Source of the DNA: Peromyscus leucopus
Lineage: Eukaryota; Chordata; Mammalia; Rodentia; Cricetidae
NCBI RefSeq assembly: GCF_004664715.2
Contig: NC_051071.1
Coordinates: 30,754,161 to 30,818,160 of the forward strand
Reading direction: 5' to 3'
Length of the DNA stretch: 64,000 nucleotides
Positions 22,816-51,220 of this stretch are shown in pieces. Within the stretch, counting starts at the first letter, position 1, and each line of letters starts with the position of its first letter. Made by a program: the position numbers and the translations under genes. Below the pieces are notes generated by a model. That model was not told where the DNA came from. It made no database searches and saw nothing but the letters and a program-made list of their open reading frames with translations.

Positions 22816-23117
22816 TACTGGAGAAATTATTTTGGCCACTCCACGTAGTTAAAAGGATATTTATTTAATGATGTAACTCACAAATTAAGTAATAGGTAGG
22901 TCGCAGGGTCTGGGGAAGGTGTATTGCAGTCCAGTGGTGTTCTCTGGAGCTCTGCTCAGTCAACCTCCACCGTTCAGCGTCCGAGAGAGCGCACAGAGAG
23001 AGCACTGGCCCATCCAGCTCTCGGGTCCCCTGGCCCCGCCTCATAGGCGTGACAGTTGCCAGAGTCTCAATGGGGGTTGGAACTTCCAGATCCAAGCTGC
23101 AATGGCTACCCACTACA
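22816..23117 (-). mobile_element. Solo LTR (tRNA-Lys-primed ERV family), reference copy
   Basis: The 302 bp element is flanked by perfect 6 bp duplications ATAGTG (22810-22815 and 23118-23123). On the minus strand it starts TGTAGTGGGTAGCCATTGC and has AATAAA near 22860-22865 followed by about 45 bp to the end. It is the same LTR family as the antisense part of 50562-50979 (shared GGCCACTCCA.GTAGTT, AGGTCGCAGGGTCTGGGGAA-like and GGGGTTGGAACTTCCAGATC segments). Unlike that element it has no tRNA sequence attached, so it is a plain solo LTR. Sequence between the ends is CpG-containing U3. Confidence 0.9.
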
Positions 23118-50555: not shown

Positions 50556-50561
50556 GACTAC

Positions 50562-50979
50562 TGTAGTGGGTAGCCGTTCCAGCTTTGATCTGGAAGTTCC
50601 AACCCCCAAAAAGCTCAGCCTGGCTAGCTCAGTCAGTAGAGCATGAGACTCTTAATCTCAGGGTTGTGGATTTGTGCCCCACGTTGGGCGCCAGATATTG
50701 GTGAAATTATTAAGGCCACTCCATGTAGTTGAAAGGGAGGTTTATTTTGTGGGGTAACTTACAAGTGAAGGGATAGGTAACAGGGTCTGGGAAAGGTGTG
50801 GCGCAGTCTTGCGGTGTTCTCTAGAGAACTTGGCTTGGTCTACCTCCACTGTCCGGGGCCCAGGGACCAAGAGAGCTGGCCCATCCAACTCTTGGCCCTG
50901 CCTTGTAGGTGCGACAGTTACCAAAGCCTCAATGGGGGTTGGAACTTCCAGATCAAAGCTGGAATGACTACCCTCTACA
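50562..50979 (-). mobile_element. Chimeric LTR/tRNA insertion with inverted U3 ends
   Basis: A 418 bp insertion flanked by perfect 6 bp duplications GACTAC (50556-50561 and 50980-50985). Plus-strand order is as follows. 50562-50608: LTR start in sense (TGTAGTGGGTAGCCGTTCC to the CCCCCA). 50609-50617: nine-base filler AAAAGCTCA. 50618-50693: complete tRNA-Lys(CUU) with CCA. 50694-50695: GA. 50696-50979: a whole 284 bp LTR in antisense. The antisense LTR has a poly(A) signal (TTTATT at 50741-50746) and ends at the same U3 terminus (CTCTACA). Read on minus, the LTR is followed by two bases and a PBS matching tRNA-Lys, as in a provirus, but the copy continues through the entire tRNA and then turns back into U3. 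Both termini are therefore U3 ends in opposite orientation. The family is shared with 22816-23117. Confidence 0.9.
50618..50693 (+). pseudogene. tRNA-Lys(CUU) copy, retrotransposed with 3' CCA (tRNA pseudogene)
   Basis: 76 nt with the cloverleaf in place: acceptor GCCTGGC pairing GTTGGGC, A-box TAGCTCAGTCAGTAG, anticodon arm TGAGA-CTCTTAA-TCTCA with anticodon CTT at 50651-50653, and T arm GTGGA-TTTGTGC-CCCAC. The 3' CCA (50691-50693) is encoded in the DNA. Nuclear eukaryotic tRNA genes lack CCA, so this is a copy of a mature tRNA. The T-loop/B-box is mutated from TTCGAGC to TTTGTGC, so it is probably not an active pol III gene. It sits exactly where the primer tRNA of the adjacent LTR would be. 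Confidence 0.92.
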
Positions 50980-51220
50980 GACTACCTTTAAAGCTAAATT
51001 TACCTTTTACCCTCACACCGAGCCCTATCATCTACTAATGATAAATTCCAAATCATAATAAACAATTTCTTGTCTTTATTAAAATTGACACAAAACAGTA
51101 AACTATTCTCTCTTAAGGGAATGATCTATTTTTTAATCCAGGAGGCACAGATTCAGAATAGTGGTTCTCAAGTCTTCTTTGTTGTTATGTGATGCAGTTT
51201 TTTTTTTTCTGGGGAGACAC

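Follow-up and report, generated by a model that had tools for sequence, protein, structure and literature searches.

Within the 64,000-nucleotide stretch of Peromyscus leucopus DNA analyzed here (the window), an insertion of 418 bases at 50562-50979 is flanked by exact GACTAC repeats. It consists of a U3 tip in sense orientation, a short filler, tRNA-Lys(CUU) with its CCA, the dinucleotide GA, and an LTR in antisense orientation. The features of the insertion, and of one further LTR used for comparison, are as follows:

50556-50561, no strand: left target site duplication (TSD) GACTAC, an exact match to the right copy
50562-50608, plus strand: U3 tip of 47 bp, starting TGTAG, the left integrase-joined end; 44/47 positions agree with the inverted right terminus, and it matches the U3 ends of relatives
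50609-50617, plus strand: 9-bp filler AAAAGCTCA at the template switch, by sequence reading
50618-50693, plus strand: complete tRNA-Lys(CUU) cDNA, 76 nt including CCA (Rfam tRNA model, 48.2 bits), with T rather than A at position 58 by reading
50694-50695, minus strand: GA, the complement of the TC that separates U5 from the primer-binding site (PBS); the same 2 bases occur in 20/20 relatives and are absent from solo LTRs
50696-50979, minus strand: whole LTR of 284 bp, starting TATTGG and ending CTACA, the second U3 terminus, by sequence comparison
50980-50985, no strand: right target site duplication GACTAC, an exact match to the left copy
22816-23117, minus strand: diverged LTR related to the same group, for comparison only (75% identity to the window LTR), read as an ordinary solo LTR because ATAGTG flanks it on both sides and it carries no tRNA

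The Rfam model match covers 50618-50690 against a gathering score of 29, and the anticodon reads CTT; ARAGORN reported no tRNA anywhere in the window. A chance arrangement is excluded by three features in combination: an inverted repeat of 48 nt with 94% complementarity, the match to the full tRNA model, and a 6-bp duplication that is exact and sits at the edges where it is expected. A normal provirus has one U3 and one U5 end outside, whereas here U3 lies outside at both ends, with the GACTAC duplication exactly at the LTR termini. U3-R-U5 passes without a break into the complement of the entire tRNA and its CCA, and the T at position 58, which is m1A in the mature tRNA, is the trace that passage of m1A58 would leave. 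The TC between U5 and the PBS is removed by integrase from a normal end. By its sequence, the element is thus an integrase-type insertion of an endogenous retrovirus (ERV), with a full copy of its tRNA-Lys(CUU) primer, CCA included, continuous with U5. The original prediction had the order of the segments, the 9-bp filler, the full tRNA with CCA, the 2 bp and the antisense LTR right, and erred only in giving the U3 tip 46 bp instead of 47. Its proposal of ordinary integrase joining at two U3 ends is borne out by the agreement of the tips and the exact GACTAC duplications, as well as by 6-bp duplications at many sister loci. The end branch of the window LTR in a tree of LTRs is 0.089 changes per column (median 0.071), indicating that this copy is not recent.

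We searched the window's own assembly (one assembly, 2.475 Gb in 1840 contigs). The LTR yielded at least 85 matches, a lower bound since 40 of 6144 first-look candidates were scored, and from these we took as relatives the 20 best matches reaching into a tRNA, plus 19 others. Sequence of the tRNA stands directly before GA and the inverted U5 in all 20 best relatives and in two of the further 19 (L029 and L030). Four others (L031-L034) have the 18-nt PBS region followed by leader sequence, and 12 (L036-L047) are LTRs without tRNA, 8 of which have an exact 6-bp TSD by eye (L036, L037, L042-L047). A pattern for the tRNA 3' end (nt 51-76, 26 nt in all, 8 more than the 18-nt PBS covers) has 178 exact matches in the genome and 734 at up to 3 mismatches, behind several LTR families; the reversed pattern, at up to 3 mismatches in the same genome, has none. 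The exact 18-nt complement of the tRNA-Lys(CUU) PBS occurs 598 times, and 178/598 continue into the tRNA, a ratio that counts exact copies and leaves decayed copies of both kinds outside. The rule that only about 18 nt of the tRNA are ever copied therefore fails for these elements, and the 178 exact and 734 near-exact CCA-bearing 3' ends contradict the expectation of a rare event. Insertions bearing the tRNA are recurrent across this genome, and several LTR families are involved. The window element is therefore no one-off.

No recognized LTR follows the CCA in 8 of 70 loci from the pattern search, so that some of the CCA-bearing copies, a minority, may have arisen otherwise; the 734 matches are not all of one kind. 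These copies are:

A58: L063, L064, L068, L075, L106, L109
T58: L088, L094

L109 has a longer flanking repeat of LINE type.

Among the 178 exact copies, base 58 of the tRNA is T 135 times and A 26 times; 17 copies have G, and none has C. The 23 copies that are unselected for this base (the 20 best relatives, L029, L030 and the window) have T in 17, A in 5 and G in 1; their other non-CpG tRNA positions depart from the tRNA in at most 3 copies, with CpG decay as usual. The 70-locus pattern set comprises 30 first-cut matches and 40 of the 70 further matches listed, in list order, and is enriched for A58; its non-CpG change rate over tRNA nt 1-50 is 38/2428, and T58 is present there on both isodecoders (22 and 7 loci). 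Dropping the CCA requirement raises the number of T58 matches only from 135 to 138, so nearly all T58 copies are CCA-bearing. In tRNA-Lys(CUU) the base after position 58 is G59. PMC4787781 reports that m1A with G next to it is misread mostly as T or G, with little C; those data come from cDNA libraries, whereas the same signature appears here in germline insertions. T or G without C at position 58 is the fingerprint expected from a reverse transcriptase misreading m1A.

Copies with A58 carry more other tRNA changes than those with T58 (29/1319 versus 8/968, p=0.011), which suggests that the A58 class may be mixed. The letters A, B and C used here for LTR families were assigned from the U5 sequence. 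Base 58 is A in 11, T in 18 and G in 2 copies of family A, and A in 14 and T in 4 copies of family B (Fisher p=0.007, in a single unplanned comparison within an A58-enriched sample); perhaps the two families differ in their reverse transcriptase, or in how the tRNA was modified.

A tree of 43 LTRs places the tRNA-bearing ones among solo and proviral LTRs. The 23 tRNA-bearing LTRs need 12 changes on this tree, at least 3 by supported branches, and the tRNA label is no more clustered than shuffled labels (63/500 shuffles as low). A composite family that propagates would have common junctions in many copies, and here the junctions differ, except for one U3 spot in four family-B loci. The original prediction had offered a junction search as a choice between a one-off event and a propagating composite; searches of the window's own genome with the LTR and with the tRNA 3' end returned many copies, and neither description fits them.

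We classified 91 loci (the 20 best relatives, the 70 pattern-set loci and the window; L029 and L030 left out) from the LTR sequence present on the 5' side of the tRNA, over a distance of about 0.6-1.2 kb. In the inverted class the U3 ends lie outside; the direct class has the order 5'LTR-tRNA-internal or U5-3' end, so that, as in a normal provirus, a U3 end and a U5 end lie outside. LTR position assigns 35/91 loci:

Inverted, 17 loci: the window, L012, L013, L019, L058, L073, L074, L079, L089, L092, L097, L099, L100, L102, L104, L116, L117
Direct, or U5-tip by script, 18 loci: L054, L063, L066, L067, L076, L080, L082, L083, L086, L090, L091, L095, L105, L108, L109, L111, L112, L114

Two of the 18 direct loci are doubtful and were retained: L063, with no recognized LTR after the CCA, and L109, whose 'tip' lies within the longer flanking repeat. 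L091 and L109 were assigned by a 10-nt rule. The other 56 loci were left unassigned; 9 of them (L016, L022, L050, L055, L060, L077, L081, L085, L110) match the 3' internal sequence known from direct loci, leaving 47 with no such match or assignment. We dropped an interpretation of the loci without a visible second LTR as tRNA ends glued to host DNA, the left flanks being ERV internal sequence in at least 9. Two loci have unusual surroundings: L112 (G000:C3:141142878-141146141) holds two tRNA copies in tandem about 840 bases apart, in the order tRNA-LTR-internal-tRNA-LTR, and in L024 about 140 bases left of the tRNA equal the right flank at 84%, resembling a very long target duplication.

Of the 14 inverted loci open to the test, 8 have an exact 6-bp TSD where one is predicted, at offset 0 (L073, L079, L097, L100, L102, L104, L117 and the window element); of the 13 such direct loci, 10 do (L054, L067, L082, L083, L086, L090, L095, L108, L111, L114). 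The remaining 6 inverted and 3 direct testable loci have no exact TSD there; two of these nine, L012 and L076, agree at 5/6 bases. No countable TSD was found at the predicted place in L013, L019, L058, L089, L092, L105 or L112; the 6-mer match of L089 occurs at a shifted offset only and was left out of the count, and in L112 the test means little because a second tRNA precedes. Other scripts found an exact 6-mer at an LTR-like edge in L023 (GATCTC, then a possible 5-nt U3 tip), L027 and L053.

The sequences joined to the tRNA are diverse. The tRNA copy begins at nt 1 in 27/70 loci. The window element and L012 share their U3 break, at position 47, and show no microhomology there. In L013 the left arm is U3-R with a run of 17 A behind it, suggesting that the 3' end of a polyadenylated RNA was the acceptor, and the arms of L100 and L102 hold an LTR, the PBS region (of which L102 has lost part) and leader. 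Patches of other sequence separate U3 from the tRNA in L058, L079, L104 and L117; the patch of L104 is GC-rich, 236 bases long and without an LTR match, and may have been reverse-transcribed from a host RNA. A common U3 break is seen in four family-B loci (L073, L074, L092, L116), AAAGTT/GCCC, beyond which other copies of this U3 run GCCCTGGGG, GCCCGGGG or decayed forms; the spot reads GCCC[CGT..]GGGG in these copies and resembles the tRNA 5' end, GCCCGG. At the direct junctions, forward homology is 0-3 nt in the nine loci whose acceptor can be placed (a tenth, L082, is not placeable). In L086 and L108, which have exact TSDs, an LTR and internal sequence of family C are joined to an LTR of family A. 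The two arms are 99.7% identical in L089 and 100% identical in L100, indicating that the process went on until recently.

How could a primer tRNA be copied in full and end up between two U3 termini? It is very probable that plus-strand strong-stop DNA passed m1A58, missed its normal second transfer, jumped elsewhere and was then integrated. Plus-strand strong-stop DNA (U3-R-U5) would be copied past m1A58, usually with insertion of a wrong base, and would continue to the tRNA 5' end or part of the way. PMC13191261 describes m1A58 as the point where plus-strand strong-stop DNA ends, with full tRNA read-through as an alternative product; among its products P1-P5 only P2-P4 are active templates, P1 being the full tRNA copy. 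The over-extended strand would be unable to pair at the PBS, so that the second (PBS-PBS) transfer would fail and its 3' end would shift to a wrong template. The tRNA copy, base 58 and the TSDs can be read off the insertions themselves; the jump is deduced from its products. If the acceptor is minus-strand DNA, near the 3' LTR or within U5, the outcome would be a deleted provirus of the form 5'LTR-tRNA-3' part-3'LTR, as in the direct class. If, we infer, the acceptor is plus-sense viral sequence (inside U3, at R-poly(A), or in U5/leader with an ordinary first transfer), the inverted class would result: the strand, now a minus strand, would be extended across U3, and another plus strand, presumably primed from the polypurine tract (PPT) at the new U3, would place U3 ends on both outsides. 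Integrase would join either product alike. The window element would belong to the inverted class, having switched at U3 position 47 with a patch of 9 bp; its acceptor may be RNA or DNA. Autointegration, which had been offered as an alternative, is unnecessary as an explanation and may apply to single loci. The other half of that proposal, in which plus-strand strong-stop cDNA was extended over the whole tRNA before switching to a U3, is supported by the misreading fingerprint and by sister loci with other switch points.

Two further routes account for the junctions differently and may apply to the window element. Host repair may have ligated a tRNA-extended LTR molecule to other broken or incomplete viral DNA before integration. 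This route, which we regard as possible though unlikely, would suit the short homologies at the nine placeable direct junctions, the patches in the four loci named above and the inter-family chimaeras; it does not suit the four family-B breaks at one U3 spot resembling the tRNA 5' end, and it accounts for the tRNA copy in the same way, since read-through of m1A58 is still required. Alternatively, the 3' end of the tRNA-extended strand may have folded back onto its own U3 and copied to its own 5' end, giving a second tip without a second PPT priming. Such a snap-back is doubtful as a general explanation. The tip stops exactly at the U3 start, the two window tips agree at 44/47 positions and differ from L089 by 1 change (left) and 2 changes (right) by reading, and short tips recur in the window, in L012 and in the four family-B loci; a snap-back cannot, however, yield the poly(A) arm of L013 or the L100 and L102 arms, which extend past U5 and the PBS region and reach the leader. 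Short tips, that of the window element among them, may nevertheless have formed in this way.

A single tRNA-LTR element formed once and then multiplied would give hundreds of copies and supported neighboring pairs of tRNA-bearing LTRs in the tree, such as the window with L010, both of which are seen; we nevertheless hold it extremely unlikely, and reject a propagating composite family, because several LTR families, two isodecoders, and differing switch points and tRNA starts are involved and the copies form no single clade. A variant tRNA gene as the source of T58, in place of m1A, is very unlikely: only 3 of the 138 T58 23-mers lack CCA, T58 occurs on both isodecoders, G58 is also present, and loss of A58 would presumably break the B box of tRNA-Lys(CUU). 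An assembly artefact, or tRNA copies made by LINEs, would be in keeping with the few CCA-bearing copies that have no adjoining LTR and with the LINE-type repeat around L109; given the many loci, the exact 6-bp TSDs at LTR edges and a window element whose end is a U3 terminus and not a tail, we assign it a practically negligible probability. Read-through of m1A58 in strong-stop DNA followed by a jump remains the best explanation.

It is instructive to compare these insertions with known systems. Class II ERVs leave solo LTRs and deleted proviruses with 6-bp TSDs and a lysine tRNA PBS. The present insertions share the LTR ends, the TSD and the PBS, and differ in that the junction of the deletion or inversion contains a complete tRNA copy and, in the inverted class, U3 lies at both outer ends. 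The HIV-1 product P1 is alike in that plus-strand strong-stop DNA passes position 58 and is completed to the primer tRNA's 5' end; according to PMC13191261, P1 arises there with unmodified tRNA or a mutated methyltransferase and is inactive for transfer, whereas here we find germline-integrated descendants in which base 58 is misread. In titles and abstracts of the open-licence literature we found no description of integrated full-tRNA strong-stop DNA. Tailless retropseudogenes, which are reportedly LINE-made, may resemble the CCA copies without LTR (for example L109); the window element differs from them by its LTR ends and 6-bp TSD.

Two other primers were counted as well. For Lys(UUU), 19 exact PBS 18-mers, a small number, gave no read-through. 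For Phe, 182 exact PBS 18-mers gave none at up to 1 mismatch, a zero that is void, together with the Fisher value computed from it, because the Phe T-arm pattern matched no gene in the genome either. Many of the Phe 18-mers among the matches listed lie in tandem, often 38 bases apart.

The original prediction had also placed the element close to the origin of tRNA-derived SINEs, for which a strong-stop model exists; we found no paper on such an origin in the open-licence literature. The likeness lies in a tRNA joined to LTR-type cDNA. Tests for polymerase III boxes, a tail, a LINE-type TSD and clonal spread gave instead T58, a CTACA end, a 6-bp TSD and copies scattered in the tree. A58 lies in what we take to be the polymerase III B box, and because it is lost in the window and in most exact copies, and the element has a U3 terminus and a 6-bp TSD with no LINE-type tail, the link is weakened. 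That a window-type element is a SINE precursor is not supported in any evident way.

The m1A58 stop is held to make the second strand transfer work, and here its failure would be readable event by event in inherited DNA: which wrong base was inserted, how far the copy extended, and where the strand went next. Genome comparison could thus test primer-tRNA modification, the choice of transfer sites and the origin of deleted and palindromic proviruses, and tRNA-like matches beside LTRs would be explained as cDNA rather than genes. We consider it likely that this genome is a germline archive of one failure of reverse transcription, in which Lys(CUU)-primed ERVs of several families often pass m1A58 (the 178/598 above), mostly replacing A58 with T or G, and jumps to minus-strand DNA or plus-sense sequence give deleted, inverted and inter-family chimaeric insertions. 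If so, base 58 would be a fossil record of tRNA modification and reverse-transcriptase behaviour, one that may differ by family.
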